NCBI RefSeq assembly: GCF_963678975.1
Contig: NC_089280.1
Location: 16,032,780 to 16,096,779 of the forward strand
Direction: 5' to 3'
Origin: Dysidea avara
Lineage: Eukaryota; Porifera; Demospongiae; Dictyoceratida; Dysideidae
Length of the DNA: 64,000 bases
The stretch's first letter is position 1, and the number at the start of each line of letters is the position of its first letter. The translations under genes and the position numbers were made by a program. The notes below the pieces were generated by a model. The model was not told the origin of the DNA, did not search any database, and saw nothing but the letters and a program-made list of their open reading frames with translations. Shown here in pieces: positions 48 to 63,296 of this stretch.

Positions 48-74
48 TGACTGTTCTATTAGAGTATCTCGATC
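48..74 (-). repeat. Dispersed dyad motif, near-consensus copy
   Basis: This is a copy of a motif that recurs across the window. On one strand it reads GATCGAGATACTCTAATAG and continues with AACAGTCA or AGCAGTCA. Other clear copies are at about 975-999, 7954-7980, 7987-8007, 8683-8709, 8711-8730, 19551-19570, 34043-34070, 36036-36057, 36059-36085, 36359-36381, 37397-37443 (two), 38181-38209, 50958-50983, 51173-51199 and 63009-63029. The core CTCTAATAGAG is an odd-length palindrome. Function is unknown. Confidence 0.85.
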
Positions 75-579
75 TTTTAGCCAAAATACTATTTTGTGGA
101 GTTCCTTGAGGAAAGAGGCTGTGCTCCCACTGATCATCATTGTAATGGTGTAGATTGATGTACGTACTCATACTGATATGTGTTTGTGAACAAATTAAAT
201 AAGCAGCAACACATTGGCCTGAGCTTTTCTTGTCATTCAGAAGGGGTTTCCGAACCCCCCCTTGCAGGCCCCTGGATTTTTGCTGAGTTCCATGTACACT
301 GGAAGAAGAAGTATGAATACTATCATAGATAGTATCTATGATACTATTATAGTGAGCTAGAAAGCAGAATTAGCTAGTATAATATAGTATAAGGTTTCCT
401 CAACAAAGGAAAAATTGAAAAATCAACTTTCTGAGATGGAATTTGGTGACAATTTTGACTAAAAGTTGAATTTGTTTATGAAAATTCAATGCTGGAAGCA
501 TGAATACTACTGAGCTGGTAGTAGCTATAAAGTCTGTAAGGAATTTTGAAAAATTCACTTTTTGAGAATGATTTTGGTG

Positions 580-950
580 GTTGAAAATTTATGTAACGGT
601 TGAACATAGCTGACAACAAAGCGTAACAGATACTTCACTTTTCAGACAATAATTGATAGCTGGGGCACGTGGCACCATTTCTTTTGATGTGGTACGCGTG
701 GGTTCACCAGTCAAAATAATTAATTTTATTTTACAAAAAATAAAGTTGACAAGTACACAAAATAATTTGGAATTTTCAACTAGAGTAGGGACCATAGCAC
801 ATCGATTAAAGAAATGCACAGTAGGGATATAACATTTCTTATTGTTTTACTGTGATTTAATATTGTGTACTACTCCAGCTTGTTTCAGCACTTTTTTATT
901 GATGTGCTATGGTCCCTACTCTAGTTGAAAATTCCATTTTTTTGTGTACT
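580..950. repeat. Foldback repeat, family A copy 1
   Basis: The arms at about 750-810 and 895-955 are inverted copies of each other, sharing the text for 'GGACCATAGCACATC' and 'TTTCAACTAGAGTAGG'. The left flank (about 655-770) is also homologous to 5940-6050, which shares a TGATGTGGTA block, a TTACAAAAA block and an AAGTACA block. It is therefore a dispersed non-coding element. No coding sequence is visible in it. Confidence 0.7.
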
Positions 951-3900
951 TGTATACTCTTGACTGTTTTATTAGACTGTTCTAATAGAGTATCTCCATG
1001 CATCTCTAAATGTATAGAGGGGCAAATTTAGGGGAGGGGAAAGAGGGGCCAATACCCCTCCCCCCCTTCAGAAATTTTTATAGTGTTACTCATTGAACAT
1101 AATAAGATTCAAACATTTTTTGATGCAGTTTATGACTGTATAATAAAATAGATCTGAATTTCTACCCATATAGGTATAACACAAGGGCCACCGAGTACAA
1201 AAAGGAAATAAAAGTTGTGATCTGAAGACAGGGTTAGTAAAGTTAGAAGGCCCTTGCAGCTGAGTTTCCCTTGCATTGTCTTCATTAGTGCCCTGTCTAA
1301 GAGACTAAATTGACTTCTAAACAGTTGCCTAACCCTAACCTAATCCTAGAAGCACTTTTCCTAATCCTAGGAGCGCTGCTCCTAATCTTAGGAGTGCTGT
1401 TCCTAGATAAGAAAAATCAATGGTATCATACTGTGCGTAGTGCATGGCTAGCCATTCTAATCACTACATGTATACAATAATTTGCAACATGCTAAAGTGC
1501 TCCTACTAATAACTAGTAGCCTGAGGGGTCCGCAACTACGAACAATCCTGTACAAGATTTCAAATCTTTGGCAAGATTTTAAAGAATTCATGGCAAGATT
1601 TCAAAGCAAATGAAATATCTAGTATCTGGGATAGTTCAATCACGTGATGCTTAGTATCCTAAAATGTGTGGAAATAGTTAGATACCACACATACCAGCAT
1701 CCTTGAGGCATAAAATGCTGAGTAGCAAGTGTTAGAATGATGTGATCCTATGAAGCATTTATGCCTCAAAGTCGCTAGTATTGGTATCTAACTGCTTCAA
1801 AAAATGGTCAGCCAGCAGTGAAAAGGACATTGTAGCTATGCCTCATGTGAAGAGTATACAAAAGGCTGATTGGAAAACTCCATGTGAAAATTTACCTGCC
1901 TCTCAAGGCTCAGCTGCTGAGACAGTACTTTTACTGGTGATACACACTGCTTATCAACAAGTACTGCATCAGTTTGAGTAAGAGAAATGTATCAAGAATT
2001 AGCAACAGTACCTTCAACAATATAAAGTTGTATCGGTGCACCAGACGCTCAACTAGATGAGTATCTATCCTCAACTTCTACCCAAGACAAGTCAAATAGA
2101 CTACCACGAGCAAGATTTCATGGATTGGATTCACCATGCCTCGTGTAAAAGAAGTGAAAGTGGAATCATATAGCTAGTAACAATACTGTAATGGCGTTTG
2201 TCATGTCGCAGCATCGGAGCCCATTTTCTAGGAAAATTAAGACACCTATACCTACCTTGGCACTCCAGTTGCCGGTAACTCGTGATCACCAGTATAGGTA
2301 GTGAAAAACATGCACTACCTAGCTACTAGGTTAGTTGTGCTATTGTTTTGTTGACAATATAATTATATCAGCGGTAAATTCTTGTGTGCATAGTAGTGAT
2401 AACTAATTGATTAGTATGGTTGGTACTCAGAGACTTGTGTTGGAGTCTCTTCATAACTAACTTCTATTTTAATTGAACTTAAAGCATTGCTAACATACCA
2501 TTTTCTAATATTTAAATAGATTTCTGTCGCTAAAATGTTTACAAGAGCCGTGGACTGCTTTGGGAAGCACGGATGACAGTTCTAATAAAGCACTTTTCAA
2601 AACTTTAGATTTCAAATTTGAGGTTTCAACAAGATTTCAATGAGGTTGTAAAGATTTCAAGAGAGTTGCAGATCCCTCGCCCCATCCCTTTCCTTGTAGG
2701 AAGGACTACCTCTTGTGATATTCCAGTATAGCCAAAATTTAGTTTATAATTCAAGAAATGTTGATATATTGAATAATTTTAAAGGCAGCCGTATCATCTG
2801 CAAATTTACCTGAAACCAAATTTAAACTTTCACCCAACACTTTCGTGTACACTAAACGCCTCTAAAAATTATTGTGTGGTAGTTGTTTAAACCATCGATA
2901 GCTTGTGTAACACATTTTAAGACTCAACCGTCTGCAATGGCCTGAATCGAAAATTTTACCAGTGAAACACTACTGATAGGTGATTATCTGCCGTATGCAT
3001 CAATCATAACAGACTGTAGCTAGCTAGCTATATACTAGCTACTCAGAGTGGGAACCCATTTAATAATGTGAATCTGAACTTGTCTGTGCCCCTCCCCCTG
3101 GATCCGCCCCTGCCTAACCTTGTACCCAGACTGCTCCCTAACCAAATCAACAAAAAGAAAAAAAGTGATCTGAGTACCTATGTGTAGCTATTCCCCATGC
3201 AGCTGTGAAGCCTACCATCTTTATGATAGGGCTCATGCAATACATTTGTTGTACCAAACAATGCATAACTAGCTAGCTACATGGGTGCAATACTGCTGTT
3301 TACCAGAGCTTATAATATCTCTATGGTATAGTGTAGCCTATATAACAAGAGGGTGGCACTCCAATCAACCATGTGCTTTAATTTTTGTTCTCGGTCAAAG
3401 TCAAAAAATAAATCTTGACCCTTGACTTACACTAAAATTATGTTTGACTTTTGACCAAACGCTTGTATATTTGTGACCCACTGAGTGAAAACCTGACTTG
3501 TTTGTGTTTCTTTCAAACTTCATTTTATGATTATTGTTGTCTAGAAAGAAAAACCAATGGGTTGTCATAGGCGTAGCAAACACCTTGTGGTTGAGGGGGG
3601 GGGGGGGGGGAGGGGGGGAGACAATGGTAGAATAAAATAAAAGCTGAAGCATGCTAAAATAGAGAATGTGGGAGCATACCCCCCCAAGAAAGTTTTGAAA
3701 ACTAATGCTCTGAAACTGAATTTCAGAGTATTTTAGCAGTAAAAACACTTTCCAGCAGTGTATTCTTACTTGTATCATTTACTTCAATGTCAGTCACAAA
3801 CACTATGAATTTAATTTTAGAGGCACTTGCCACAATTGTCGATTTGAAGTGTTGCTGAGAAGTCACTATGTAAGCTGATAGCTTCATTAATTCTATATGG

Positions 3901-4769: not shown

Positions 4770-5066
4770 CTCTCTTTAAAGTCAAAGAATTTTAAGTGAC
4801 CACAGAGCTTTTCATTCCAGCAGTTTGGTGATTGTTTTTTCAAGACATAGATATAGACTTGTGTACTCAGTTTGCTGACTAATTTCCCAGCTGCACGTAT
4901 AGCTTCTTGGCTGCAAATGCAAGTGGGGTAGATGGCAAATGTGCAAAAGGGAAAATATTCCTATAAACACTTTGTGAATATCCTTGACAACAAGTCTGCC
5001 TTTGAAACACTTCACTTTACCATTACCATCATACTTCACCCTGTATATATATATATAAATACCCAT
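4770..5066 (-). mobile_element. Ty1/copia reverse transcriptase relic
   Basis: The minus-strand frame that starts just after an AT microsatellite reads YRVKYDGNGKVKCFKGRLV. This matches the block at the beginning of copia-type reverse transcriptases (W-[VI]-[FY]-[KR]-x-K-x5-G-x3-[RK]-[YF]-K-x-RLV). Further downstream a second reading frame gives CWNEKLCGHLKFFDFKESGV, another copia block located after the catalytic region. The catalytic YVDD-type motif, an integrase and LTRs are not visible, and several stops interrupt the frame. It is a short, dead remnant. Confidence 0.7.
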
Positions 5067-6300: not shown

Positions 6301-7512
6301 CGCATGTATAGAATAATATGTACATATATGGCTAGTGATTCTTGAAAACATGCTAATTGATAGAAGGGTAATAAGTTCTTGTCTGCATTATAGTTTTGAT
6401 TATCCAGGTTTACTACCAATAAGCAGCATTCTGGCACAAGAATCTGATAATGTACAAGTACACTGTGTTTAGAATGAATGAGATCAATGTAGATGCAACA
6501 TAGTTATGTGCCCTACTTTGGTTTGCGATTCAAGTTTTTGTAAAAAGTGTGTGCTAGAAAGTAAACTAAGGAAAAAAATACAAAACATTCAGGAATTTTC
6601 TTAACACACTTATGATATACCATCTATCTTGTCTCTTAATTCACTTGTTTTAGTGCATGAATCTTTAATTTCATTGATAATTAAATACACTAGTTTTTAA
6701 GCTATATAGAAAGGAGATGCATGTGACTGTTCTGTAAATGACTATTTGAACACCACTGTTTGTCTGGCTACATTGTATCAGCTATTAGGGTGTAATTATT
6801 AAACTGTGACTTTTTAATCTTTACTCAGAATTTAATGCCATCCTCATTTGAACCCAAAGACACTCTTATGTGCTCTGTGTGCGCAGCTGCTGAGGAATCC
6901 TTAATATCTACCTTGTTGTTGTCATTCCTTCTGTGAAGAATGTCTGGAGAAGATATGAATACAATCCAAACAAAGACTACTGTCCCTACAGGAGGAGTAA
7001 AAGAGTGTAACTTATTTTAAGAGCCAACCAGTGAATGAACTGAATCTGGAGAAGGAATTGGGAGGTGATGTATATTTTACTTGTAGTAAATGTAAGCTTG
7101 ACTGTGAATCATATGATGAGCTGACATGCAAACATCACACTATCAAAGAACAATGTAATGATCCAATAATGAACCTGAACAGTAAGCACCAACATCAGTT
7201 GAAATCAAGTGAACTTGTTGATTTGCAGTTACGTAAAACTCCAGATCCAAATACATCAGAAGTAACCACTAATCTTCCCAACTACATTTCTGTACATACA
7301 AAAGTGGAATTTTCTATCATTACTAAGGATGGCAATGGAGATCATTGTTCCAAGGGAGGCCACAATGTGACTGTGGAGTTAAAATCATCAGCAGACCACG
7401 TGACATGTTTGGAAGTAAAGGATGATCATGATGGAAGTTATGTGGCTTTACTTGAAGGTAAGCAAGCTGGAGGAGCTGAGTTACATCAAGAGTACATAAT
7501 ATATATATTTAG

Positions 7513-9060
7513 TAGGGCTGCACCGATTCTAGTATCGGTATCGGTATCGGGCCGATATTGTTGTTTTCATGAAGTATCGGAATCGGCCATTATATTGTTG
7601 CAGATACCGATTCTTATCACGTGCGAGAATAAAATAACGTTTGTTTGTACTTGCTTATTTTACTAGCACAGTGGACGCCTAAAAGCATCAAGTGTAACAC
7701 TAATAACTACCAGCAAACAGTGGCGTAGCTACCATTGAGGCAACCGAGGCAGCTGCCTCGGTAAAAAAAAAATGCAACAGGCTGAGCAGGCCTGAGTTTT
7801 GGCACCCCGAATTTTCTACTCAAACATGACTAGACAGCATTACTGTACCACACACAATAGTATCTATGGCTGTAGTACTAAGCAGGGCCAGAACCCTTGG
7901 TGACACAGTCCGGCATTGGATGGATCATTTTTCAGCTACTTGAGTTTGTAAAAGATCGAGATACTCTAATAGAGCAGTCATCATAATACACTCTAATAGA
8001 ACATTCAGTACAGATTATAGCCACTGTTCTCATTGCACTGCTTGGTCTAAATCATTTACATTTATGTTAATCAATTGATCATGCATATCATGTATTAGCA
8101 GTTACAATAAAAAATAGACTCCACATACCATTTAAAAGCATATATTTTCAAACATTTCCTTAAGGGAGCATGCCACTAGACTCACTAGCTTGACATGATT
8201 AGCACATGCAGTTGAACATCACATCAAAGAGATAATCTCTGACTTAAAACATCACAGCAGATCAATGCTGAAAAAGTAGTGTGCATGACTATGACTACCA
8301 TTGCAGTCCATGATGGCCTGATCACTCAAAATATCTCTGGAGTAGTCTGATTCAGTTTTTGTGTTGAGTGCAATTACAAATTGAAGTATGCATGGTATGC
8401 ATATACTGTAGCACTAACTAAGCTGGAACATTACTTATGACATGTAGAAAATGCTCAGAGTCTTCTGAAACAATTTCTTCCATCCAAACAGAGAGTCAGC
8501 CTGCAAATGCTGTACCACCCAATCTTGAAAGTGTGTGTGAATCAGTTGAGTCAGAAGCTGACCCTCTCAATTATTTCAATGAATAGACTTTGCCTTGGTA
8601 AAAAAATTTTCCTGGCTACGCCACTGGCAAAATAACTGAAATATGCTGAAACCTATGTGTGAAAACGTTTTACTGAGAAAAAGATCGATATACTCTAATA
8701 GAACAGTCAATAACTCTAATAGAGCAATTAGGTAGCTAGAAGTGATTAGAATATTTTGTGATTTTGTAAGCACCATTATGATATTATCTACACTTCTCCA
8801 GAAGAATACTGGAATATCCACTGGTTTGCATTTTAGTGACTTCCTTCTTTGTAAATCTTGATTGGCTACTACATTATAAACATGAACCATACTGAAAACA
8901 TGTACAAGAATACCATGAAATGTACTATATAATAAATGCGTACACTATATGAAGTAGCTACTTTAAGGTACTTGGTATCGGTACTTGTACTTGCAGATAC
9001 TTCCCAGCTGAGTACTTGGTATTTGAAGTATCAGTAAAAAGTGGAATCGGTGCAGCCCTA
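7513..9060. mobile_element. Non-autonomous hAT-type element (middle insertion)
   Basis: Perfect 17-bp terminal inverted repeats TAGGGCTGCACCGATTC lie at the two ends. A perfect 8-bp duplication ATATTTAG flanks it (7505-7512 and 9061-9068). An 8-bp duplication is the hallmark of the hAT superfamily. No transposase reading frame is visible, so it must have been mobilised in trans. The internal sequence contains two copies of the dispersed dyad motif (8683-8709 and 8711-8730). Confidence 0.92.
7718..8626. mobile_element. TIR element inside the hAT element (innermost insertion)
   Basis: The terminal repeat CAGTGGCGTAGC starts the element and its reverse complement GCTACGCCACTG ends it. The flanks are GCAAA at 7713-7717 and again at 8627-8631, a 5-bp duplication. 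No transposase frame is visible. It carries two dyad motif copies (7954-7980 and 7987-8007). Superfamily is unassigned; a 5-bp duplication is less usual than the 8 bp of hAT. Confidence 0.75.
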
Positions 9061-10275
9061 ATATTTAGTAATATATGTATATATATATATACATATATAT
9101 ATATTATGTACCCTTTGTTACATGTATCCATGGATGGAAGGCTTATCAGGGGAAACCCCTATAGTATTACTTTTAGAACTACTGTGAAGTAAAGCTACCT
9201 AGCAAGACAGTGAACAATAATGGTGGTATGGGTAAACTTTGCAGTATTGCATTTGGCAGAAATGGAATATGGGCTGTTACCGACTATTCCAACCACTGTG
9301 TGCACGTGTTTGATGGTCAAGACCAGTTGATCAATTCTTTTGGTAACAAAGGTAACAGGACCAGTCAGTTCATTAATCCACGTGGTATTGCATTTGATGA
9401 AAGTAACTATTTGTATATTAATCACAGAGTGCAGAAGTTTGATGTCAGTGCTACTTGCTGCATTTTGGAGGTTATGGCTCTGATAATGGAGAATTACAGT
9501 ATCCACTTGGTGTCAAAGCACATAACGGTCAGATATGTGGGATAGTAGACGTATATCGGTGTTCCAGTATAATGGATATCATGCTTCTCTTTTGGTTCCC
9601 AGTTGGATTAGCCATTTGGTTTGGTGGTGAATGTTAATGACTATAACCTTTACTACATTCCCAGATTCACTCATGATGGTCATTATATTAACAAGTTTGG
9701 CACACATGGGTTTGAAAGAGGTCACTTGAATTATCCCTGTAGTGTTGCCACTGATGAAAATGGTCTTGTTTATGTGGGAGATGGAAATCATCGTGTATCT
9801 ATGTTTGACAGTTTTGGAAACTTTATTCATTGCTTTGAGTCCCAAGGATCTGCTAGTGGCAAATTTAACTCTCTCTGACTCAATGGGATTACTGTTAGTC
9901 CTAATGGCAGTACATATGTTGCTGATGGCAATAACAAAAGGATTCCGGTTTTTGCTGACTTCTAGTTGACTCCCTTTCAGTTGTAAATTATAGAATGGAT
10001 TATAAATTACTGTAAAATTACATTCTGGCTCAGCACCTAATTCCATGATTGTTGTACTGAAGTCTGATTGGTAACTTGTATAGTTTGAAGATTTCAACTG
10101 AATTTGTGGAGTTCCAACGTTATAAATCGTACTATAAAAAGCACTGGTACCTGCTTTATGGTGCAGGGCATGCTCTAGTGTACATGTTATGCATTTTGAG
10201 TTTAACTTGGTAGTGACAAAACTAATTTCATTCCTACACGGTACAACCAAGTATTCACTATTTGCATGTTCAGTA

Positions 10276-19305: not shown

Positions 19306-21386
19306 CAAGGGAAGATTTAGGGGGGGTGGGTGCTTGGGGTGCTGAAGGACCTCCCCTTCAAAAATTTTCCATGTGCAAGCTAGGAAGCTTCTAGAAGTTG
19401 CAGTATAAATGCAATTGCATCTTATACGTATGCATGGGCAATGAAAAGATCGAAAGAGGAGGGAGAATGGCTAATCTTTACTTAGAATTACTAAGAGGGG
19501 TTCAAATTATACTTTTGGAGTGAGACTTAATCTAAAAGCTGCTAAAAATTGAAATACTCTAATAGAACGGTACTACTCTAACAGAACATCCATCATAATG
19601 TTTTTTCAAGAAGTTGCCAGTGTGTTTTCTTGACTTGTGCACTGCTATCTTACCATTGCTCCAAGCATCCTGCCATATACTAATCACTTTCTGAGAACAA
19701 CTTCTGTCAAAATTAATAATTTAATACTATAGTGGGTATTTTCAGTTGTTGCTACATTGATGCTTGGGTTGACATGCTTAAGTAAAACAGTTAATTTCTT
19801 AGCATGTATACAGTTAATTTCTTAGCATGTATACAGTTACAATCAGTGTTCTTGGAATTTGAAAACAAATTGGACAGGCAGGTCAGTTTGTAACAAGGCT
19901 GTAGTATCTGAGAACTGTTTGTTTCTGCTTTATCAGTATATACCAAAGTTTCATGCTGCATTTATCTGATCTGAATCTAGCATCAATTGAAACTTATAAT
20001 GTCATACAGGGTTGCACTCCCAAACCCCTTGAAGCTCAACTTTATAAGCTCAAATGATACTACAGCAATTATGCTGTCACATTATAAGGGGGTTAGTTGT
20101 TGCCAAAAACTAGTTGTATATGTAAGTGACTTTGGACTCTGGTTGTAAAAAATTAATAATGGTGATGGGGCCATATAGTTGTAAAAAGTCAGATTGAAAT
20201 GGTAGCAAAACAGTCTGTGGCTATATATGCTACGAAGTTGAAGTTTTTTTGTGTGCATTTTAAATCTCTACAGTGACCTTAAGATCCAATCCTGTGTATG
20301 TCTTTGACAATCCACTATTATGTATTGCCTTAGCATTTAAAAGTGTAGTTCTGTTTTTCTAAAATAGCTTACAACTGAACTCATCCATCTTGTACCCCCA
20401 CAATCTTTCAGTACAATTGGTTAAAAATAGCTTCCAGATTCAATTTTGTGATACGTAGCTATATTCCAAAGATTTCCAGAGGGAGCATCACCCCAGATCC
20501 CCTAGCTGGAAAATTCTACGTATGCGTACTTTACACACTGCATGGTGAGTGTATACTTGCCCTCTCAAGCCCAGCTCTCTTCATTGTTACTGTTTGGACG
20601 TTATAGTTTGAACCATGAGAGACTGACTGTAAAGCATACTAGCTATACTTAGGCAAAGCAATACACTAAATTTGGTGATCTTGTATATTGATGGATTTAC
20701 CATATAAATTTTATTAATTCGTGAATTGATGTAATCAATTAGCAAACTCTAAAATTGCTAAATTTAACTTAAGGTATTTCAAATACAAAATTAATGGCAA
20801 ATATTGATCATGTGTAGCTGCATCCCTGTTCTTTATGCAAAGAATATATTTTTAGTCACTGGTTGTGCCCTTATATGACAGCTAGTAACTATAACAACTG
20901 TTCTGGAATAATGGTGTCATTTCATCATTATTACACTAAGGTGCATGACTCACAATACTTTACAAGCATTGTGAATCACTTAAACAAAGTGGCATCATTT
21001 TTCAGTCTAGCCAAATTTAACACTGAATAGGCTAAATTTGCAAAAAAAATCTGTGGGGGCATGCCCCCAGACCCCCTAGATAGCATAGATATAGCATAGA
21101 TATAGCATAGATAGTTGTAGCCAACCATAGCACCCCGCCCTTCTGAAAAATAAATAAATTTACGTGACACGTGTGGCGTGTTGCTTTTCTCCTCTCATTA
21201 ATTCTGGTGTTTGACTTCAGTTATTCTGTCGTCAGCTTGTCCGAATGAGCCAGGATTTTTTCAGGGGATGCCGGTCTACGGGGAATTTTTTGGATTGTGA
21301 TGGCCGCTCTCAGTGTTTACTACTCCAATGTTCGTGAATGTCATTGTAGATGTTAATGTAAAAAAAAAATCCTAGATTCGCCCCTG
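19306..21386 (+). mobile_element. 2.1 kb TIR element, copy 1
   Basis: It aligns along its length with 50735-52920. The ends are imperfect inverted repeats (left AGGGAAGATTTAGG, right the complement of AGGGGCGAATCTAGG). The flanks GCAAGGCA and GCAAGGGA would be an 8-bp duplication with one mismatch, consistent with a hAT-like element. No transposase frame is visible. An internal 24-bp tandem duplication lies at about 19796-19843, and two dyad motif copies lie at about 19551-19592. Confidence 0.7.
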
Positions 21387-28901: not shown

Positions 28902-30470
28902 TCAAAGTTTAATGAGTAACTCTTGTTCAGTGAACTTAGATTGTTCTGGTGTCAGTTTTGCTATTTGTGTCAGGAGGGACAACAAGCTGTAATCCTGAAA
29001 AAGAAGGACGAGCCAGTTTCAGACAAGAAATTTGAACATGATATAGTGTGAATTGAACTCTCTTCCTAAAAAGTTCGTTCCTGTTGTAATTTTCTGTACT
29101 AAACAGCACTCTGCTTGTGCAACAACTAGTTGAACACTAGAAGAAAAGTTTTGATGAAAAGACTGGCAAACACAGGTGAGATTAGTTTTAAAATTAAGAA
29201 TAAACGGGTTGACTGGCTGTTGGAAGTTACTTGGAGTTGAGGCAGTTGGGAGAGCTTGGCTATTACCACTAGTATTAATGAACAACTGTAACAGTTGTAG
29301 AATATTGGCAACTTGTCCACCAACTGTGTTGATAGATGTAGACAATGCTGGAGCTGCCTGATGTTGAATCAAACAAGTGGAAGAAGTTGCAGTGATTAAA
29401 GGGTAAGCTGTTGGAGTAGACATAGCTGGAGTAATGACACACTGTTGGAATTTTGAATATTGCTGATCAGAGTTGGGGGTAATGCGTTATGTAATAATAT
29501 TACTTTAACAGTAACGAGTAATATAACGTGTTACATGACAAAGTAGCAAGTAATATGTAACGGATATTACATTCGGAAATTGTAACAAATGTAATGCGTT
29601 GCTTCCTATTAAGGCGCATTGTATCCAGGCATGTGATTGATTGCATTTTGGAAAGACTGGAGATAGCGTTATAGGCATGGAAAAAGAATGATGGCGTAAG
29701 GGGAGTGCCCTTGAGGCCAAGATACAACAACAAAGTATGTATTTGTGGCTGAAATACACCACAGAAACACGTGTCTCGCTCGTGTCACTTGTAGTTGTAG
29801 GCTGGTAGCTTGTATTTAGAAAGTTGGACTTACTTTATAGTTTGTAATGAACAAATGTAATATGTAATATTATTACTAGTTACAGCCCTCAGAGTAGCGA
29901 ATAATATGTAACTCGTTACTTTTTCAGTAAGTAAGATATAACTGTAGCGTGCTACATCGCATAAAAGTATGAGTAATATGTAACTAGTTACATTTTTAGA
30001 GTAACGACCCCAACTCTGTTGCTGATTATTTTCTACAAAACATATCTTGAATCTGTGAAGGAGATATCAGTGGTACAGAAATAGATGAATTAGCAGTTGT
30101 CTGTTGGTCGATACCCATAGACTGTGCACACTTGCTGAAACAGATAATGGTGCAGGTGGCAACTGAAGTGTATGGTGTTACGATAGCAGTGCTTGTCACA
30201 GTAAAGCGTTTTGGGTTTGGCTCACCATTATCTTGCACAAAACATCGTGAAGAACTGCTCTCAACTGGAGTATGTGGTAGTCTTATTCTTTTAGCAACTC
30301 CTCCTTTTCTACCCACATCTATTGGCATTCCTTGTTGCAATGACTGCGACAGTATACTAGCAACAAAAACCCACACTAAAGTCAACTCTGTTCAAGTCAC
30401 AAGCACTGCCATCATCTCTCGCTTCATCTGGGTCTGATTCAGAGCTGTCACCACTAATCGTCGTCTCCAT
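28902..30470 (-). CDS. Unknown four-exon gene, probable nuclear or polar low-complexity protein
   Basis: The proposed exons are 30470-30387, 30343-30115, 29425-29100 and 28994-28902, with consistent phases and 243 residues. The start METTISGDSSESDPDEARDD is acidic and serine-rich. Exon 2 has a basic patch GRKGGVAKRIRLP that could be a nuclear localisation signal. Exon 3 is rich in Ser, Thr, Gln and Asn. Exon 4 encodes LLSLLTQIAKLTPEQSKF and a stop. I recognise no domain. The first intron would be only 43 nt and its donor (gttgac) is weak, so exon 1 or its junction may be wrong. Introns 2 and 3 use gtatcg and gtacag. A hAT element sits in intron 2. It ends about 670 bp upstream of the NLR, on the same strand. 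Confidence 0.4.
29468..30018. mobile_element. Non-autonomous hAT element
   Basis: Ends CAGAGTTGGGG and CCCCAACTCTG. It is flanked by a perfect 8-bp duplication TTGCTGAT (29460-29467 and 30019-30026). The inside is built from repeated GTAACG/TAATATGTAAC blocks, the sub-terminal pattern known from hAT elements of the 'gagttgggg-taacg' type. No transposase. Confidence 0.92.
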
Positions 30471-33414: not shown

Positions 33415-35275
33415 ATACATTAGAGTTTCCACTCAAAATAGGAAGGTGCCTCATTTTGTTGTGTCTGGAGTTTTCACACAGATTTACCTTTAAGATAAAG
33501 CAAACAAGTGCCAATTTGTTATTGGATTGTTTGCAGCATTCAATATCAGCACAATTTAATATCTAAAAAGTGGTCACGTGACCAAAAATCCCTTCATATA
33601 TGATTTCCACTGCAAAATGGGATGATGCCTCAGCCTTTTTCATTGTTTCTGATGACTTTCACACAGACTGACCTTAAGATAAAACAAACAGGTGTTAATA
33701 TTTACTAGTATATTAAAAATTATAAATCTAAATATGAAGTAGAAACCCAAGTAATAAAAAATAGTGAAACAAGATATGAATGATGGTAGTTTTCACAGCA
33801 TAGCTTGGTGAGAAATCTCTACTTTGACATGGTATAGCAATTATTTTGTGTTCAATGCCAAAGTAGGGATTTCCCACCGAGCTATGCTGTAAAAGCTACC
33901 GTCATTCATCTCTTGTTTTACTACTTTTTATCGATTTTAGATTTACTTCATTTTTAGATTTATAATTTTTAATATACTAGTTTGTTTAGTTGTTTTGTTA
34001 AGGCATACAACCAGCTATAAACATGTGACTGTTCTATTAGGATGACTGCTGTATTAGAGTATCTCGAGTCAGCCTGCAAAGATGTGCGCTTGCCTAAAAA
34101 GAGGCATGGTTTTGATCGATTATAGAGTATCTCGAGTCAGCCTTCTAAATTGAAGGTGTGTGGTCACTGAAATGCAGCTAGCGTAAAAGGGGTGTGTCAT
34201 TGTGGTTTCAATTGATAGATCAATAATGCGTAGAATGAAGAATGGGCGGGATCTTGTGACCTATCATGAAAGCTATCTAGTACTGGTACTTCCGTACAGT
34301 AGCCTATGTTATAGGTTATATAAGTAAGGAATATAAAATCTATGCCTCTGTACAGTAGCATAGTCTAAGCGCATTAAATAATCTTGTGGCGTCTATTATG
34401 CTGCTTAAAGAAAGCGTTGATACGGAAAATTAACGACTTGATATGGTTTCGTTGAATGAAGAAGACAAGCAACCTGATTGAAGATAAAAGAAAAGACAAG
34501 ACGCAGAGGGCACAACCCCAAAAGGCACATCCCACTGGTGAGTTTGTTCTTGTGGCGTAAAATGGTGGCAGTGCACTGCTTCGATTGGCCTCTAGGCTTG
34601 CGACTGCAGTCAGTCAGTTAGGCAGTCAGTCAGTTAGGCAGTCAGTCTAAAATTCAAGATTTGGCGATTTTTAAAAATTCTGTATCCGGTCACCTGTAAG
34701 TGTTTTGTTGTATTTAATGCTGTTTTATGTATTATATGGACTAGTACTATTCCGTAAAAGTGATTTTCGTCTTGTAAGATATCTCTAGGATGATTTTTAA
34801 AGGCGGAATTTTGGGCGGCGTGCGAAATTTCATCTGGATTCCTACTTAAATGGTACGACCGTACCGTTTGATTAAACTGTCTATTTCTTTCAATATAAGG
34901 TACAGTTTATACTGTAAATATCCAAAAAGTGGTCACGTGACCAACAATCCCATTACAGCTATACAGGATGTGCTATAGCACTCCAAGATGTAGAAGTCTT
35001 AAGAAATACAATACTTGTGACTTAGATCACCCTAAAATACAATGATTTTTTTTCAATAAGCTGTCCGATATAACCATTAAGGTATTTTTGGTCACGTGAC
35101 CACTTTTTGTTGTTTTTGTGTGTTAAGCTTACGTTGATACCCAATGCTACAAACAATCCAATGGTAAATTAACACATGTTTGCTTTATCTTAAAGGTCAA
35201 TCTGTGTGTGAAAATCTCCAGAAACTGCAAAAGTAAGCACCTTCCTATTTTGAGTTGGAAACCCTAAACACATTT
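33415..35275. repeat. Inverted-repeat element, about 170-bp arms, with tandem inner repeat
   Basis: The left arm, about 33420-33585, and the right arm, about 35085-35275, are inverted copies: TCAAAATAGGAAGGTGC, CTTTAAGATAAAGCAAAC and GGTCACGTGACC occur in both. The left arm has a diverged direct repeat at 33600-33700. The block AAAAGTGGTCACGTGACCAA also recurs at about 34925. No open reading frame is visible. A minisatellite (AGTCAGTCAGTTAGGC, 2-3 units) lies at about 34605-34650. Confidence 0.7.
33704..33981. mobile_element. Long-arm foldback MITE
   Basis: The two arms of roughly 130 bp are inverted copies (left ACTAGTATATTAAAAATTAT, right TTTTTAATATACTAGT; inner AACAAGATATGAATGATGG versus the complement of AACAAGAGATGAATGACGG). 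It leaves only about 20 bp of loop. It is nested in the 33415-35275 element. Confidence 0.85.
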
Positions 35276-35968: not shown

Positions 35969-36286
35969 CAGGGGCGGATGAGGGGGGGGTCAAAGGGTTC
36001 CATGGAACCCTCCTTGAAAGAGCCTCTCTTACTCAAAATACTGTAATAGAGCAGTCAAGATCGAGATACTCTAATAGAGCAGTCACAGTATTCTAAGAGG
36101 AGCAGTATATAGTACATGTGGAATTATAAATAAGGAAATATAATTGGTGAAGGTATCTATGGTGAGGGGCAGCTATTGTCAGCAGGTGATGACCTTTTCT
36201 TTTTTTTTGGTCTTTGATTTATAGCTGGGCTGAAGTTGCAATTCCAGAGTGGAACCCCCCTTTTAAAAAGTCTGGATCTGCCCCTG
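35969..36286. mobile_element. CAGGGGCGGAT-type TIR element
   Basis: It begins CAGGGGCGGATGAGGGGGG and ends with the complement of CAGGGGCAGATCCAGAC. Two dyad motif copies lie inside (36036-36085). No clean target duplication could be read. A further element of the same look begins at 36584 (CAGGGGTGTAGCCAGGATTT), but its right end was not found. Confidence 0.6.
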
Positions 36287-38732
36287 AAAAGACAACAGTT
36301 GTAAATGCACTTTACAGTTATAAGCACACTGTGAAGAAAAATGAGTAGTAGAGCAGCCACTACTCTAATAAAGCAGTCACAATCAAATGTCATAAACTAG
36401 TCACAATCAAATGTCATAAACTGAAAGTTTTTGTAAATTATAACAATGCTACCTTATTTTGTTTACCATCAAACACTAACCAATATTATGCTTTGCAAAC
36501 CATGCATTTTAGCTAAATAGCTAGCTATCAAAAATGCTCCCAAATTTAAACCTAGGAAGTCTCTCAGAAGATATCCAACTAGCAGGGGTGTAGCCAGGAT
36601 TTTTTGAAGGGGGGTTCCAGCACCAGCATTGAGTTACCAGAAGCAGGGGTCTGGGGGCACAGCCCCCAGCTGCTGAGAGACTGTCAATATTTTAATGAAT
36701 CAAAACTCAGCAAATTGCTATATTTTATGCAAAAGTACATTAATTATGATGCATATAAGTGCCCCTGGGATGAAGGTAGTACTAGATAAAGCCACCTAGT
36801 GGAAACAGACAGCTTAACACAGAGACACATATAGTAATCTGTAAGTGATAGGTATATCTCACTGTGGTATAGGAGCCATGAATCCACTGATACAAATGGA
36901 ATGACTTACAATCAAAACAATATAACTATACAAATATGCATAGTATGAATTCATTTTGCATAACACAAGTGATAAATTACTAGAGCTCTATATCTTTAAA
37001 CACTGCACACCAAAGCTATAGCAGCATAAGGCATAGATAATATATACCTTACCGGTAAGGTATATATGTGACCGGATTTGACAAAACCAGGCTTCCACAC
37101 ACATCCAATTCTTCGACTTTAATTGCTATAGTAACTTGACAACGCAGTATGCTATTTCCCTACAATTTTCACACAATGCTTTCATTGCTTTATGTAATAA
37201 CAAGTCCAAATTTGAAACTGATAGCTCACTTTCATACTGAATTATGGTCCTTCAAAGTCATAAATTTGGATGTGTGTGGAAGCCTGGTTTTGTCAAATCC
37301 GGTCACATATTATCTATGCATAAGGTCATGCTAAGTTTTGCATTTAATGTTAGAATGTCTGAAAAACTTCATATGGACATGGATATATTTACATGCATGT
37401 TCTATTAGAGTATACCTGACTGCTCTATTAGAGTATATCGATCCCTTATAACAAGTTTTGAACAGGGCTCATGTTACCTCTGTGAATCCTTCCCTGAGAG
37501 ATGAATGCAAGCTTTATCAATTGTTGTGCTGCGCCCTTACACTATATTACTCACTCATTTTGTCCTGCCACACTAAATGGTGTGCCGCTAAGATCCTGCT
37601 TGCAGAAGTCTAAATTTTACAGGGGGGTTCCTGAACCCCCCGGATGCATGCATAAAATCACTAACATGCATAAAATCTACTCATGCATAAGATCTACTAA
37701 TGCATAAAATCACTAACAGATGATTTCAAGAGTCACTGCCAGCAACTCCACAAGATCAGGAGCATAATTTTATCGACAAGTGAATTCGCTTAAGGACATG
37801 CATCTGACATCATGATCAGTACAGCCCAGAGTAATTTTTATTTGAACAGAATTGTGAAGACTAACAGCTATTTACCAGTCCTAATTATACTCCATACCAA
37901 CACGATTAAATACAGGATAATCAATGACTTATTTGAATACCCGTGCAGGCCCAAATAACCTATACTCTATTTCCCACATTCTTTGCCACTGGTAAAATTA
38001 TATTGGATTCTCCGAATCAACTCTAGACACTGTCACACTGCAATTACTCATGGATGCTAGCACTAGATACAGAAATGCATATATGCTTTTAGCACACATA
38101 TAGGCAGTGGAAACAGGAGAGCGGAGGTGGGCATATGTAGCCCTCTCACTTTCAGTGCATGGACAATGCTTGCAAGAAAAGATCGAGACATATTCTAATA
38201 GAGCAATCAGCCTCTCTCACTTTTACATTAACTGTCAGTAGCTGCTTAATTCATTTGTAATAACATAGTGAAATCATCTAAAATACTCTCTCAGAGCTTC
38301 ATGTAATAAAATTTTCTATGGACAACCCATAAATGACATCCATATCTTTTAAGCTTCCGGCAAATTCATACTACATGTATGATTCGTTGTCAAAGTTGGT
38401 TCCTCACTCTTTGGCCTGCTCTACCACACGGCTGCTCCAGCATGCACACAAAAATTAATATATTGTTGTAAAATAAACATGTGCACAAAACAGTAGTACA
38501 GATTAATACACTGTGTTAACAACTACGTAGCTAGGAATTGGATATTCACAGATTTTATCATCATAAAGATCAAATGGTTGAGCTATTAAGTTGAGTTATG
38601 AAGAGCACAAATAAATGAAAAATATTACAAATACACAATAGTGTATATATTTGTACATATGCACAGTACAGCCACAGGTACCTACATATAGTCATTTAAC
38701 ATTATTTTGCATATATATGTAGTATGTTTTTG
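36287..38732. other. Repeat-rich interval without a gene
   Basis: It contains dyad motif copies (36359, 37397-37443, 38181), the MITE at 37067-37307, a perfect palindrome at 37041-37066 and a short tandem array at about 37645-37710 (unit ATGCATAAAATCACTAAC and variants). No homology-supported coding frame. Confidence 0.5.
37067..37307. mobile_element. MITE, TGTGACCGGATTTG family, copy 2
   Basis: The inverted ends start TGTGACCGGATTTGACAAAA and continue CCAGGCTTCCACACACATCC, matched by the inverted right end for about 42 bp. Its outer 14 bp equal those of 17471-17687. Confidence 0.9.
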
Positions 38733-50734: not shown

Positions 50735-52920
50735 AGGGTGGATTTGGAGGGGGTGCTTAGCACCCCCTCCAAAATTGTACTATGTGCAAGCTAGGAAGCT
50801 TCTAGAAGTTGCAGTACAGATGCAATTGCATTTTATATGCATGCATGGGCAATGAAAAGATGGAAAGGGAAAGGTGAATGGCTCATCTTTTGTTAGAATT
50901 ACTGAGAGGGCTCAAATTATACTTTTGGTGTAAGGCTTTACCTAAAAGCTGCTAAAAATCGAAATACTCTAATAGAACAGTCAACTACTCTATTAGAGCA
51001 TCCATCATGAAAAATGTTTTTCAAAAAGTTATTAGTGTGTCACACATTTGCCTTCTTGATCTGTGCACTGCTATTTTAGGCCACTCCAAATGATACTGTA
51101 GTTTCCCGTCCTGATGTTTTTGTTATTTGGTGTGGGCAGGAGGCTAGTTATCATTATTCATTGTTAAAGATGTGACTGCTCTATTAGAGTATCTCGATCT
51201 TGAGAGGATTTTAAGGTCATGAAAATGGCTTCTTTGCAAACTAGCAACCACCAGAACTGTTCATTTTTAGGCTTTTTAGCAATGCAAAATAAAAGGCTCT
51301 ATGAGAAGTTTCCAGAAAGCAGTACAGGAAGTGATTTTGGAAAAATAATGACAATAATAACATGCAATGTGGGTGCCCAGACATGATGCGGGCGGAGGAT
51401 GGGAAACTACAGTCTCATTTGGAGTGGCCTTACCATTGCTCCAAACATCCTGCCATATACTATACCATAGATAATTACTTTCCGAGAACAGCTTCTAACA
51501 AATTGTTCAATATCATAGTTTTTTTAGTTGTTACTACAAACTTGATGTTTGGGTTGACATTCTTAAGTAAAACGGTGAATTTCTTAGCATGGATAAAGTT
51601 ATCAAGGGTTTGGTATCTGAGAACTGTTTGGTTTTGCTTTACCAGTACCAAAGTTTCGTGCTGCATTTATCTGATGAATCTCCCTATATTTTAGCATCTA
51701 AGAGTCTGCACTCCCAAACCTCTTGAAGTTCAACTTTATAAGTTCGAATGAGACTGCAGCATTTATGCTGTCAGTGTGCCCAGGTTATAAAGGGTGGACC
51801 AAAACTGGTTGTATATGTAAGTGACTTTGGACTCTGGTTGTAAAATATGGTGATGGGGCCATAGTTGTAAAAAGTCAGATTGAAATAGCAATAGAACAGT
51901 CTGTGACTATAATACAAAGGTGAAGTTATTTTTGTGTACATTTTAAATCTCTACATGTGACTAAATAACCTCAAGATCTAATCTTGTGTATTGTCTTTGA
52001 CAATGTATTGCCTTATAATCCAGTAACATTAATTTTAAAAGTGTAGTCCTGCTTTTCAACTATAATTGCTTACAACTGAACTTATCCATCTTGTACCCAC
52101 AATCTTTCAGTACAATAGAGTATTTGGCTAATAGCTTCCAGATCCAATCTTGTGATAGCTATATATATTCCAAAAATTTCCAGACGGAGCATCACCCCAG
52201 ATCCCCCTAGTTGTAAAATTCTACGTTTGTGTACTATACACACTGGTGAGTCTATACTTGTCCTCTTAAGCCCTCTCTTCATTGTTACTGTTTGGACATT
52301 ATAGTTTGAGCCAGCACACTAGCTATACCTCAAGCCGAGCAATACACTAAATGAAATTAGCAATCTTGTATATTGATGAATTTAGCATATACAAAATTTA
52401 GCAATTCATGAATTGATGTAATCAATTAGCAAAAATCCAAAACTTTAAAATTGCTAAATTTAATATACCAATATAAGCAAGTATTGATCATGTGTATATA
52501 GCTGATATTCATATTCCTGTTCTTTAAGATGTAAAGAATAAATTTTTAGTTACTGGCTGTACTCTTTATATGACGGCCGTGCCCTTATTTGACAGCTAGT
52601 ATTACAACTGTTCAGGAATAATGGTGTCATTTCATCCTTATTACATTTAGATGACTCATAATGCTTTACGAGCATTGTGAGTAACTTAAACAAAGCGGCA
52701 TCATTTTTCAGTCCAAATATTACCAAATTCAATACCGAATAGGCTAAATTGCAAAATTTTGCTGTGCCCCCCCCCCCCCCCCCCCCCAGATAGAGCACGC
52801 TTCGCACACTATACTACTGTAGTTAGTTGTATAAACCAGTTGTCGCTTTTCTTAGCAAACCAGCCATCATTTTAAATGCTCCTGTTAGCATCCCCCTTCT
52901 GAAATTCTAGATCTGCCCTT
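50735..52920 (+). mobile_element. 2.1 kb TIR element, copy 2
   Basis: It aligns with 19306-21386 throughout, for example GCAAGCTAGGAAGCTTCTAG, TCTGAGAACTGTTTG and AAATTGCTAAATTTAA. The ends are AGGGTGGATTTGGAGGGGG and the complement of AGGGCAGATCTAGAATTTC. No target duplication is obvious. It differs from copy 1 by a 351-bp insertion (51079-51429) and by a C tract at about 52767-52787. No transposase frame is visible. Confidence 0.8.
51079..51429. mobile_element. PIF/Harbinger-like MITE
   Basis: The inverted ends begin GGCCACTCCAAATGA and run on with ACTGTAGTTTCCC in both arms (right arm as complement). A 3-bp duplication TTA flanks it (51076-51078, 51430-51432), and the empty site CTATCTTACCATTGC is preserved in copy 1 of the host repeat at about 19650. 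A TWA-type 3-bp duplication is characteristic of PIF/Harbinger. The dyad motif is inside (51173-51199). Confidence 0.9.
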
Positions 52921-56771: not shown

Positions 56772-59248
56772 TGCAAGTATGGAATAATATGTACATATGT
56801 GGCTAGTAATTTCTTGAAAACATGCTAATTGAAGTAATAGGTCCTTGTATACCACTGCATTATATTTTTATTATCCAAGTTTACTATCTATTAGCAGCAT
56901 TCACAAGAATCTATTGCATGAAAGCTGATAATGTACAAGTGTTTAGAAATATTGAAGTTGAGATCAATGTAGTGAAACCATGATACAACATAGTTATCTG
57001 CCCTACTTTGGTTTGCGATTCAGGTTTTTGTAAAAAGTGTGCACTAGAAAGTAGGCTAAAACAACAACAACAAAAAAAAACAGGATTTGACCAAAGCAGA
57101 AATTTTCTTATGGTATGCCATATATCTTGTCTCTTAATTCACTTATTTTTAGTGCATTAATCTTTAATTTCAGAAATACAATAGCTTTTAGTATTTGTTA
57201 TGCTACAGATAAATGCATGTGACTGTTCTATAACTGACTGTTTGAACACCGCTGTTTATCTGGCTATTGTATTAGGATCTGTAAATATTGGTATTTGCAA
57301 CAAGTTTTTGTTGAGGTCCCCAAATGAATGATGGTCTCTGCTACAAATTTTTATTGTGTGATGAGATGGTTGGGGCTGTTTGAATTATAAATATCTACTA
57401 TAAATGTATCTATGACTTAATCTTTACTCAGAATTTAATGTCATTTTCATTTGAACCCAAAGACACTCTTATGTGCTCTGTGTGTTACCAGCTGCTGAGG
57501 AATCCTTAATATCTACCTTCTTGTTGTCATTCCTTCTGTGAAGAATGTCTGGAGAAGACACGAATGCAATCCAAAATTATTTTAGGAAGGAGGCTACTGT
57601 CCCTACAGGAGGAGTAAAAGAGTTTGAATCAACTTATTTTAAGAGCCAACCAGTAAATGAACTGAATCTGAAGAAGGAATTGGCAGGTAATGTAGATGTT
57701 ACTTGTAGTGAATGTGCTGAAAACAAGCTTGACTGTGAATCATATGATGAGCTGACATGCAAACATCATACTATCAAAGAACAATGTAATGATCCAATAT
57801 TGAACCTGAACAGTAAGCACCAACATCAGTTGAAATCAAGTGAGCTTGTTGATTTGCAGTTACGTGAAACTCCAGATCCAAATACGTCAGAGGTAACTAA
57901 TCTTCCCAACTACATTTCTATACATACAAAAGTGGAATTTTTTGTCATTACTAAGGATGGCAATGGAGAACATTGTTCCAAGGGAGGCCACAATGTGACT
58001 GTGGAGTTAAGATCATCAGCAGACCACGTGACATCTTTGGAAGTAAGGGATAACCATGATGGTAGTTATGTAGCTTTACTTGAAGGTAAGAAAATTGGAG
58101 AAGCTGAGTTACATGTATCCATTGATGGAAGGTTTATCATGGGAAACCCCTATAGCATTACTTTTAGAAACTACCATGCAGTGAAGCTACCTAGCAAAAC
58201 AGTGAACAATAATGGTGGTATGGGTAAACCTTGGGGTATTGCATTTGGCAGAAATGGAATATGGGCTATTACTGACTATTCCAACCACTGTGTGCACGTG
58301 TTTGATGGTCAAGATCAGTTGATCAATTCTTTTGGCAACAGAAGTAACAAGACCAGTCAGTTCATTAATCCACATGGTATTGCATTTGATGAAAGTAACC
58401 ATATGTATGTGGTTGACAACAATAACCACAGAGTGCAGAAGTTTGATGTCAGTGGTAGCTACTTGCTGCATTTTGGCAGTATCCACTTGGTGTCAAAGCA
58501 CATAACGGTCGGATATATGTTTCTGAGTGGGATAGTAGTCGTATATCGGTGTTCCAGTATAATGGATATTTTAGCTTCTCTTTTGGTTCTGACCAGTTGG
58601 ATTACCCATTTGGTTTGGTGGTGAATGTTAATAATCAATTACTTGTCACTGACTGTAACCTTCATTGCATTGCCAGATTCACTCTTGATGGTCATTTTAT
58701 TGATAAGTTTGGTACACATGGGTTTGAAAGAGGTCACTTGAATTATCCCTGTAGTATTGCCACTGATGAAAATGGTCTTGTTTATGTGGGAGATGGAAAT
58801 CATCGTGTGTCTATGTTTGACAGTGTTGGAAACTTTATTCATTGCTTTGGGCCCCAAGGATCTGCTAATGGCAAATTTCACTATCTCTATGGGATTGATG
58901 TTAGCCCTAATGGTAGTATATATGTTGCCGATAGTGACAACAAAAGGATTCAGATTTTTGCGGACTACTAATTGACTCCCTTACAGTATTGTAAATTATT
59001 GTAAAATTACATTCTGGTTAATTCCATGATTGTACTAGTTACTTCTGATAACTTGTATAGTTTGAACATTTTAACTGAATCAGTGGAGTTGATCAACATT
59101 ATACATTATAATATTTAGAATAGCACTGGTATCTACTTCATGCATGGTGCAAGACTTGCTCTGGTGAACTTGTTATACATTTTTTCAACTTGTAGTGACA
59201 AAAATAAGTTTATTCCTACACAGTACAACCCTATTTACATGTTTGGCA
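56772..59248 (+). repeat. Segmental duplication, copy 2 (TRIM/NHL locus)
   Basis: This is the counterpart of 6301-10275. It lacks the nested insertions, and so serves as the empty-site reference for them. Confidence 0.9.
57438..58971 (+). pseudogene. TRIM-like RING/filamin/NHL gene, disrupted copy 2
   Basis: A RING start (ATG at 57438, MCSVCYQLLRNP) is cut by TAA at 57507-57509, after which CCHSFCEECL completes the C3HC4 pattern. A second frame from 57545 runs 359 codons through a Cys/His-rich B-box-like region (CSECAENKLDCESY, CKHH), a filamin repeat (KDGNGEHCSKGGHNVTVEL, DGSYVALLEGKKIGEAELHV) and the first NHL repeats. A 28-nt deletion relative to copy 1, near 58476, throws the frame off. 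The remaining NHL repeats continue in another frame to the stop at 58969 (LDYPFGLVVNVNNQLLVTD, ENGLVYVGDGNHRVSMFD). The product from 57545 could at most be a RING-less filamin plus partial propeller. The family role is E3 ligase/RNA regulation. Confidence 0.88.
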
Positions 59249-61758: not shown

Positions 61759-61789
61759 TCCACTGTGCTACAATCGTAAAACTTAATGC

Positions 61790-62005
61790 CAGGTGGTTTC
61801 CTTTGGAATGCAGTTGTCACTCAGGGTGGACCGGGATGAGGGGCTTTTAGGTATATTGCTCGTGGCAAGTCGCGCCTCGAGTCGCGCCAAGGATCTTCAC
61901 GATCGTCTCGCTTTGTCAATCACAACTGTCCAACAATGGTATATAATTGGAATTTACTTCCAAAGTGATCGTCTTCCCGGTTAGAATTTTCACGAACAAA
62001 TCTTC
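61790..62005 (-). pseudogene. Decayed first ubiquitin-like domain
   Basis: In changing minus-strand frames: LFVKILTGKTITLEV (Ub beta1-beta2), later IVKIL and LSDNCIPKETTWH (equivalent to Ub LSDYNIQKESTLH). Stops and indels separate them, and the middle of the domain (through residue 50) is scrambled. The DNA is CpG-rich compared with its flanks. Confidence 0.75.
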
Positions 62006-62139
62006 AGTGCCGGAATCAGGCAGCACCCACGCGCTAGATCACGCGATGATGGTAACGCGCTGGCTAATAAATTAGTTTGGCGGTGGCGGCGCCCACCCAT
62101 ATTAAGGGACGGTCCCATGAAAAACCTAATGAGAAAAGT

Positions 62140-62460
62140 ACCCACATCCTGTATTATTGTATTGTATTAATGCTTTACAGTGACCAGCACTGAAGGTCTG
62201 CAGCAACATGTGCTGCAGCCTTAGGATTACCTAACCTAATTTCAAGGACTTAAACTTAGTGACTTATAGCTGAAAAGGTGTAACAGAAAAGGGGCCAAAG
62301 TAAGGAAAAAAATCCCTCCAACCACAGGAATCGAACTGCAGGTCACCCAATGTCTAGTCACGGTCGGGGCCACACTCAGTCTCCTCCAGGAGGGATGGAT
62401 TTTCTTCCTTAATCTTAAAGTCTGTGTTTTTATTCTCATAGGACAAACCCAATGAAAATT
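62140..62460 (-). mobile_element. SINE, full-length, diverged head
   Basis: The minus strand shows a box-B-like GCAGTTCGATTCCTG, then a body, then the shared tail GCAGACCTTCAGTGCTGGTC followed by ACTGTAAAGCATTAATACAA and an ATACA-rich end. The tail is related to the 15.2, 16.6 and 24.0 kb copies; the head differs from theirs. Confidence 0.65.
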
Positions 62461-63296
62461 GCCAATGCATGAATTGAATGAAAACTTGAGGGTGGGTTTT
62501 TAGTTGGGACCATTTTTGAATTTTTTTCTAGTAGTTGATATGGTACTTAAAGCTCTCTAACTGATAAACATATCACGGGGTGGGGAAGGGCTGCACTTCA
62601 ACATCCCCATATCAGCCACAGCATGTGTTGAAATAAATTTTGCATAGCTGTGCCGTTTTAGCTCACATCACACTCATTGCTTTGTTGCTTACTCCACAGC
62701 ATCAACAGCGTACCATAATCCTAAGAATATGATAGCTACTGTAGGTGGATTGGTAAATACCACCGTTTCCAAAACAATACTAACACTGGAATAAAACACA
62801 AGTGTGCATACGTATAGCTACTTTAATAATTTGTGCTTGATCAGAATGTTTTGCACAATTACCAAAGCCTTCATCCTACATAACTGCTGTTAGTAATCAG
62901 TGAACCCTTGGTTATCTGAATCCCAATGTATCTCACAATATTTAATGATAAAAGTGTTCAGATAGCTAAGTTAATTGTTCGGATAACTGACATTATACAA
63001 AGCTCTGTTGAAATACTCTAATAGAACATGTATCTGTACTCAAAATACTCTAATACACCGGTAGAACAATCGTTTCCAATTTTGAGGGTACGGATAAGTG
63101 AGGGTCTACTGTATCATATAATATATTTACCAACAACCCAGACCCCAATATTATACCAGTGATCTATATATCACATTTTCAGGTGTGTAGTTCTTGGACC
63201 CAATCACAATGAATTTGTTTGGAAAGTAGGACCTCCTGTCATTTTCACCGATCTGGATTGCTTTAAACTTCATGTCACACATTCATAACAATAGTA
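62461..63296. other. No gene; 3' flank of profilin
   Basis: A dyad motif copy lies at 63009-63029 with a degenerate second copy at about 63041. Nothing else recognised. Confidence 0.4.

Follow-up and report, generated by a model that had tools for sequence, protein, structure and literature searches.

A 64,000-nucleotide stretch of the Dysidea avara genome (contig NC_089280.1, positions 16,032,780 to 16,096,779; C9:16032780-16096779 in the present scan; hereafter the window) contains an AT-rich motif of 27-29 bp that recurs inside DNA transposons of different superfamilies. The motif, written as TGACTGYTCTATTAGAG(TATCTCGATCTT), is assembled from short modules, occupies different hosts, stays nearly identical from one transposon family to another, and decays in single copies. 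Our tentative reading is that a single host protein, binding DNA in a sequence-specific way, recognises the motif as a composite site, and that DNA transposons retain this site for a benefit to their transposition; the protein is putative, and its binding and its benefit to the elements are what we infer from the pattern of sequences described below.

Abundance and structure of the motif

The genome scan covered 550,814,596 bases in 108 contigs. The exact 27-mer TGACTGYTCTATTAGAGTATCTCGATC occurs 18,122 times (9,049 and 9,073 by strand), rising to 58,480 at ≤3 mismatches, and the exact 17-bp core TGACTGYTYTATTAGAG is found at 64,332 places. Reversed-pattern controls gave 0 genome matches each time (27-mer, core, ≤3 mismatches, tandem pairs). 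Within the window, the 27-mer is present 8 times at ≤3 mismatches, against a mean of 0 and a largest value of 0 in 100 dinucleotide-preserving shuffles. The core reaches 17 matches at ≤2 mismatches (shuffle mean 0.07, largest 1) and 27 at ≤3 mismatches (mean 1.06, largest 3), so that the weakest one to three of these 27 may be chance matches. The shuffles and the reversed patterns together rule out a chance origin of the motif as a whole.

A preliminary description of the window, made from its letters alone, had reported a motif of about 27 bp occurring about 20 times, often in close pairs, and had suggested a genome-wide count, a flank alignment and a search for empty sites as checks. Its frequency is right for the 17-bp core and too high for the whole 27-mer. 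The five coordinates it cited are correct, four being exact matches to TGACTGYTCTATTAGAGTATCTCGATC and the one at 37417 carrying one mismatch, and the close direct pairs are real (7964/7991, 8693/8714, 36041/36069, 37394/37417). The genome-wide count lies far above its control (18,122 exact, 0 reversed).

The boundaries of the motif were defined by aligning 71 sites (≤2 mismatches, with 150 bp on either side) from the window and 28 fetched loci, leaving out sites too near sequence ends, such as window 48-74. The left edge is sharp, a point that the suggested flank alignment was meant to test: conservation is weak and then rises to ∼100% from the T of TGACTG. On the right, conservation is high up to CGATCT and fades beyond, placing the end near CGATCTT. 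Information has dropped to near background ∼20 bp before the left edge and ∼10 bp past the right edge; the weak conservation at positions -20 to -1 arises because many sites have an upstream module. The structure is modular: there are one to three modules of 17-19 bp (TGACTGYTYTATTAGAGTA), variably spaced, and the tail TCTCGATCTT comes after the last of them. Among 129 cores in the fetched sequence (≤1 mismatch), 75 are followed by the TATCTCGATC tail (≤3 mismatches) and 54 are not. Tandem module pairs ≤30 bp apart number 7,253 genome-wide (3,648 + 3,605), and the first 100 listed pairs, counted by eye, use 14 different start-to-start spacings, 21 being the commonest. In hosts whose ends could be resolved, the motif is internal, ∼50 to 350 bp from the nearer element end, and its orientation to that end varies.

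Host elements of different superfamilies

Clustering of the 71 sites by their flanks, rough and done with modules masked, yields 20 clusters with 21, 13, 9, 7, 3, 2, 2 and 2 members plus twelve singletons, and the Chao1 estimate is 36.5 flank contexts. The 21-member cluster is a diverse set of CAGGG-type miniature inverted-repeat transposable elements (MITEs) with flanks in common; with 21/71 sites in this one set, some of the repetition reflects nothing more than the copying of a family. A single larger repeat family is ruled out, given 20 flank clusters whose flanks do not align beyond the motif in all copies. One site, L023:5009 (L numbers denote fetched loci), was assigned to cluster 3 despite its location inside a PIF/Harbinger-type element. 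The consensus carries the exact 27-mer, the Y position aside, in 7 of the 8 multi-copy clusters and in 13 of all 20, these being clusters of sites found by motif search.

Element ends reveal distinct classes. Elements with target-site duplications (TSDs) of 8 bp have the terminal inverted repeats (TIRs) TAGGGCTGCACC, CAGGGCCGCCCA, TAGGCACCGGCC and TAGGGCTGGGCG; those with 5-bp TSDs have CAGGGGCGGATC, CAGTGGCGTAGC and CAGGGGC(A/G)TAG; and those with TTA/TAA TSDs have GGCCACTCC. Even the two PIF/Harbinger-type MITEs at 51079-51429 of the window and at L023:4781-5159 have only their ends and the modules in common. The 13-member cluster (comp1) has a Helitron-like 5' end, A then TCAAGACACACGG, and A stands immediately 5' of TC in 12/12 ends found, counting one match that starts two bases early and one end that differs and is maybe from a related family. 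The claim that the motif recurs inside transposons of different superfamilies is therefore upheld by TSD classes and flank clusters, and common ancestry of the hosts is, as had been argued, an insufficient explanation, given 20 flank clusters and hosts of different superfamilies. In the window itself, the hAT-type element at 7513, the element nested in it and the MITE at 51079 proved to be real hosts by their TIRs and TSDs (8 bp, GCAAA and TTA, respectively). The two 2.1-kb elements also named as hosts fare half as well, the copy at 19547-19573 being badly degraded (6 mismatches).

Two further families include very young copies, the 40 matches scored, out of 1,166 and of 1,315 candidates, being 98-100% identical. 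Upstream of the motif, members of the comp1 Helitron-like family (e.g. L009, L022, L024) have a ∼31-bp minisatellite (AGCTGAACTCTCTACAGGGTGATTTGTTTGT) in long arrays. Of 45 open reading frames near motif sites, 10 were scanned; pogo-type transposase pieces (HTH_psq, DDE_1) lie at L023:2045-4661, beside the right half of a CAGGGGCGGATC family, and these pieces, by L023:4398, gave no resolved autonomous partner among the frames scanned.

Decay of single copies

Searches with flanks only fetched copies without reference to the motif, which removes the bias of a motif search. For the PIF/Harbinger-type MITE at 51079, 228 first-look candidates were found, 40 scored and 20 fetched. A recognisable motif is present in 19/20, the exception being L043, whose left half is rearranged; TSDs are perfect TTA/TAA in 15/20, mismatched in 1 and ambiguous in 1, and 3 copies are without a left end. 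The family consensus is exact, and the exact 27-mer is kept in 7/19 copies and lost in 12/19. Change rates, which exclude L043 and the window copy, indicate similar decay of CpG sites in motif and flank (6/38 vs 49/342), and non-CpG changes are likewise similar (15/513 vs 152/4499, p 0.70), although this pooled flank rate is biased low because it comes mostly from the search query. The corresponding search for the Helitron-like family gave 2,290 first-look candidates, of which 40 were scored; 20 copies were fetched. All 20 contain the motif, L065 with a short duplication inside a module. With 3/560 changes, this family's motif is not clearly below the query stretch (41/3199, p 0.20), nor clearly below the 20 bp that come next (8/400, p 0.06). 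Single copies thus decay at the flank rate or somewhat below it. Strong host constraint on every single copy is unlikely, because single copies lose the motif, CpG sites included.

Occurrence beyond Dysidea avara

Bacterial genome contigs gave 3 matches to a 19-mer of the motif, and viral contigs searched for the motif gave 0. Two of the bacterial matches are probably due to chance, and no second module at ≤3 mismatches lies within their 8 kb. The third is on a contig of SP12ARB1, described as a Rhodobacteraceae metagenome-assembled genome from the sponge Lamellodysidea herbacea in PMC7313196. The end of this contig (L001:4280-5370, JACOMT010000094.1) is AT-rich and eukaryote-like, GC falling from ∼0.58 to 0.33-0.41, and is collinear with Dysidea avara C12:25852075-25853328 (91% identity over 81 bp, 77% over 618 aligned columns); it looks like sponge DNA. 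An exact TGACTGTTCTATTAGAGTA lies there, flanked on both sides by a conserved block that looks like an exon. Dysidea avara has a module at the collinear position, alike in 26/28 bases, the remaining interval being unaligned. The same 3.6-kb locus holds a further, non-collinear module matching the Lamellodysidea module in 22/22 bases. Given this second match and the commonness of cores, the shared position is suggestive only and may be chance. The match itself indicates that more than one species has the motif.

Proposed role and alternative explanations

A protein that reads long sequences, such as one with multiple zinc fingers, would match a footprint of 27-29 bp. As proposed here, with a likelihood we place close to, and not above, an even chance, the motif that non-autonomous DNA transposons of several superfamilies carry in their interior, in both orientations and at varying distances from the ends, would be the site of such a protein and would help them to move or to evade silencing. 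Three TSD classes and a Helitron-like family hardly fit a transposase site, which is why a host protein is proposed. Because the elements differ in transposition machinery, the common factor would be a general need of DNA transposons in the germ line, perhaps a donor site that is open, a way round silencing, or a favourable replication or nuclear position. Lineages retaining the site would spread, and their single copies, once inserted, would decay under weak constraint at most. Single-copy decay combined with near-constant consensuses between families would place selection mainly on transposon lineages, and such selection would spare the motif between subfamilies too. Of the guesses in the preliminary description, a protein-binding site captured by many elements is the best, with the protein putative. 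A bolder form of this reading, which we consider doubtful, is that a single host germ-line protein controls the spread of DNA transposons at large: its 27-29 bp site would have been needed by hAT-type and PIF/Harbinger-type elements as well as by Helitron-like ones, and one transposase-independent cis signal would decide their success in dysideid sponges.

Several observations weigh against a host-protein site selected on transposon lineages. The benefit is not obvious, because non-autonomous elements need no promoter. The presence of a module in 16/18 elements having both TIRs and TSDs (288 kb; shifted intervals averaged 3.8 in 2000 trials and never exceeded 9) speaks for such a site, but this proportion is drawn from a scan that sought only ends starting CAG, TAG or GG and from a sample in which the 28 loci beyond the window had been picked for the motif. 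Unselected sequence gave 3/4 elements with a module in the window and 0/2 weak candidate elements in three random 10-kb loci, where motif sites stand at two per 30 kb. The clusters were built from a motif search at ≤2 mismatches, which favours exact consensuses. Moreover, both of the families tested show fewer changes in the motif than in the left flank. In the MITE, it lies below the left flank outside the query at non-CpG sites (15/513 vs 50/1021, p 0.08) and at all sites (21/551 vs 76/1173, p 0.025); in the Helitron-like family, its 3/560 compare with 66/791 in the left flank (p 7e-13) and with 11/400 in the upstream module (p 0.006). Weak constraint on single copies is possible, as are subfamily differences that spare the motif.

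The main rival is that elements exchange sequence passively, through gene conversion, template switching or the capture of filler DNA when gaps are repaired; the motif would then need no function, and we regard this as rather unlikely. The abundance of the motif would make it a frequent template, and possible traces of such events are visible: at L023:4398, one family's right half meets a foreign left half within the module array, and the duplication in the Helitron-like copy L065 falls within a module. Exchange would, however, be expected to transfer random lengths of flank, and what the elements have in common is the motif alone, with its sharp left edge. Exact consensuses in 7/8 clusters, where 18,122 of 58,480 matches are exact, also exceed what random capture of decayed copies would give, an argument weakened by possible capture from fresh copies and by the way in which the clusters were found. 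The motif's low change rate compared with the left flank beyond the query, seen in the two families tested, speaks against exchange as well. That same low rate favours a different possibility, namely that transposons spread the motif and that the host now uses it for architecture or regulation, as an insulator, loop anchor or enhancer. Such a process is known in outline in placozoans and ctenophores (PMC12221973), and the module that one pair of conserved blocks encloses in both Lamellodysidea and Dysidea avara (26/28 bases alike) would fit it. We nevertheless judge it improbable, since the exact motif is lost in 12/19 MITE copies with CpG decay like that of flank CpGs, and since the 22/22 match of the Lamellodysidea module to a non-collinear module of the same locus leaves the shared position maybe to chance.

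Explanations tied to the transposition mechanism fare worse. A subterminal binding repeat of one hAT transposase mobilising several families would account for the short repeated modules, which resemble hAT subterminal repeats, and for the start CAG or TAG in 14/16 motif-bearing elements with TIRs and TSDs, a count from the scan restricted to CAG, TAG and GG. Different enzymes are nevertheless needed for TSDs of three lengths (8, 5 and 3 bp) and for a Helitron-like family, the motif lies inside the resolved hosts (∼50 to 350 bp from the closer end) in no fixed orientation, and the TTA/TAA duplication in 15/20 fetched MITE copies largely refutes this explanation, which is thus very unlikely. A micro-insertion, that is, a very short mobile unit landing in other transposons, had been suggested in the preliminary description; the sharp left boundary and the separate presence of the motif in the outer and the nested element agree with it, and yet it is the account to which we give least credence. 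The proposed search for empty sites found no clean one around the 71 local sites, where one relative, in L013, shows a gap of 9 bases within the motif, and none in the 40 flank-fetched copies of two families; no duplication at the motif edges was seen by eye in the 71 listed sites. The suggestion of a shared insertion target fails because the motif is internal to elements, off their ends. A Pol III or small-RNA unit finds no support, as an Rfam search of the window at gathering scores gave 0 matches, promoter boxes not having been scanned for.

Other features of the window

The sites and host elements in the window are listed below. The TIRs of the element at 7513-9060 are identical to each other.

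Motif sites and host elements in the 64,000-nucleotide window
Feature	Position	Strand	Remarks
Full motif, module and tail, at window edge	48-76	+	exact 27-mer
Two degraded modules, overlapping	961-1000	+	
hAT-type element	7513-9060	.	TIR TAGGGCTGCACC, 8-bp TSD ATATTTAG; own module pair 8683-8730
hAT-like element nested in 7513-9060	7718-8626	.	TIR CAGTGGCGTAGC, 5-bp TSD GCAAA; module pair 7952-8007
Full motif in nested hAT-like element	7952-7980	-	
Upstream module of nested element's pair	7981-8007	-	
Full motif in outer hAT	8681-8709	-	1 mismatch
Upstream module of outer hAT	8714-8730	-	2 mismatches
Degraded motif copy	19547-19573	-	6 mismatches
Module pair	34026-34069	+	second: 3 mismatches over 27
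Module pair in CAGGGGCGG element starting 35969	36031-36085	-	36059-36085 exact
Single core module	36363-36379	-	exact
Module pair	37394-37443	+	37417-37443: 1 mismatch
Module with degraded tail	38183-38209	-	7 mismatches over 27
Module pair	50957-51004	-	50957-50983: 2 mismatches
PIF/Harbinger-type MITE	51079-51429	.	TIR GGCCACTCC, TSD TTA
Full motif in PIF/Harbinger-type MITE 51079-51429	51173-51201	+	exact
Degraded motif copy	63006-63032	-	7 mismatches

Elements with 8-bp duplications and no motif were also found, at window 29468-30018 and at L074:6256-6784 (the duplication of the latter allowing up to one mismatch), with the TIRs CAGAGTTGGGG and CAGTGTTGGG(A/G). The window further encodes NACHT, NHL/filamin, ubiquitin, profilin and Ig domains. 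NHL/filamin-type sequence is duplicated ∼50 kb apart, at 6492-9876 and 56982-58888, in segments 86-97% identical; the first copy is broken at ∼7486-9117, where the nested transposons sit, and the second is continuous there. Across the window and the 28 loci, CpG is at 0.41 and TpG at 1.27 of expectation, which suggests a methylated genome.

Relation to known systems and significance

Transposons with different enzymes are not expected to have a long internal sequence in common. Partial likenesses to the sponge motif exist among repeats. The CENP-B box is a short protein-binding box found in otherwise unrelated repeats, although it is 17 bp long and resides mainly in satellite DNA; its likeness to the sponge motif is one of description only. 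The subterminal repeats of Ac/Ds-type hAT elements are short modules inside DNA transposons, tied to one transposase and to element ends, whereas the sponge motif is internal and spans superfamilies. Different SINE families have conserved central domains, a common interior between unrelated flanks explained by recombination and shared enzymes; unlike the sponge motif, these domains are longer and confined to SINEs.

Closer cases come from other non-bilaterian animals. A motif spread by a DNA transposon, the Mutator TIR motif of placozoans, lies at the loop anchors of promoter hubs, and a protein may have come to recognise it, as the authors suggest (PMC12221973). It sits in the TIR of one Mutator family, whereas the sponge motif is internal and found in several superfamilies. 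The recurrent loop motif of ctenophores, also linked to DNA transposons, is GC-rich and bound by the lineage-specific zinc-finger proteins CTEP1 and CTEP2, whose binding has been demonstrated (PMC12221973); the sponge motif is AT-rich and 27-29 bp long, and its binding is putative. In the part of that source available, neither case describes one internal motif across several superfamilies. Judged from the titles listed, no description of the motif was found in the open-licence literature, and the titles listed as matching either of two 10-mers of it concern unrelated subjects. Open-licence searches likewise found nothing on Dysidea avara transposable elements together with the genome assembly, or on a motif shared by unrelated transposon families.

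A near-identical site of 27-29 bp across superfamilies, lost from single copies and yet almost invariant from family to family, points to a host factor on which DNA transposition in general may depend. If this is true, limits on the success of DNA transposons beyond the transposase become testable. The 64,332 exact cores would, in addition, be a large reservoir of binding sites for gene-regulatory rewiring in an early-branching animal.

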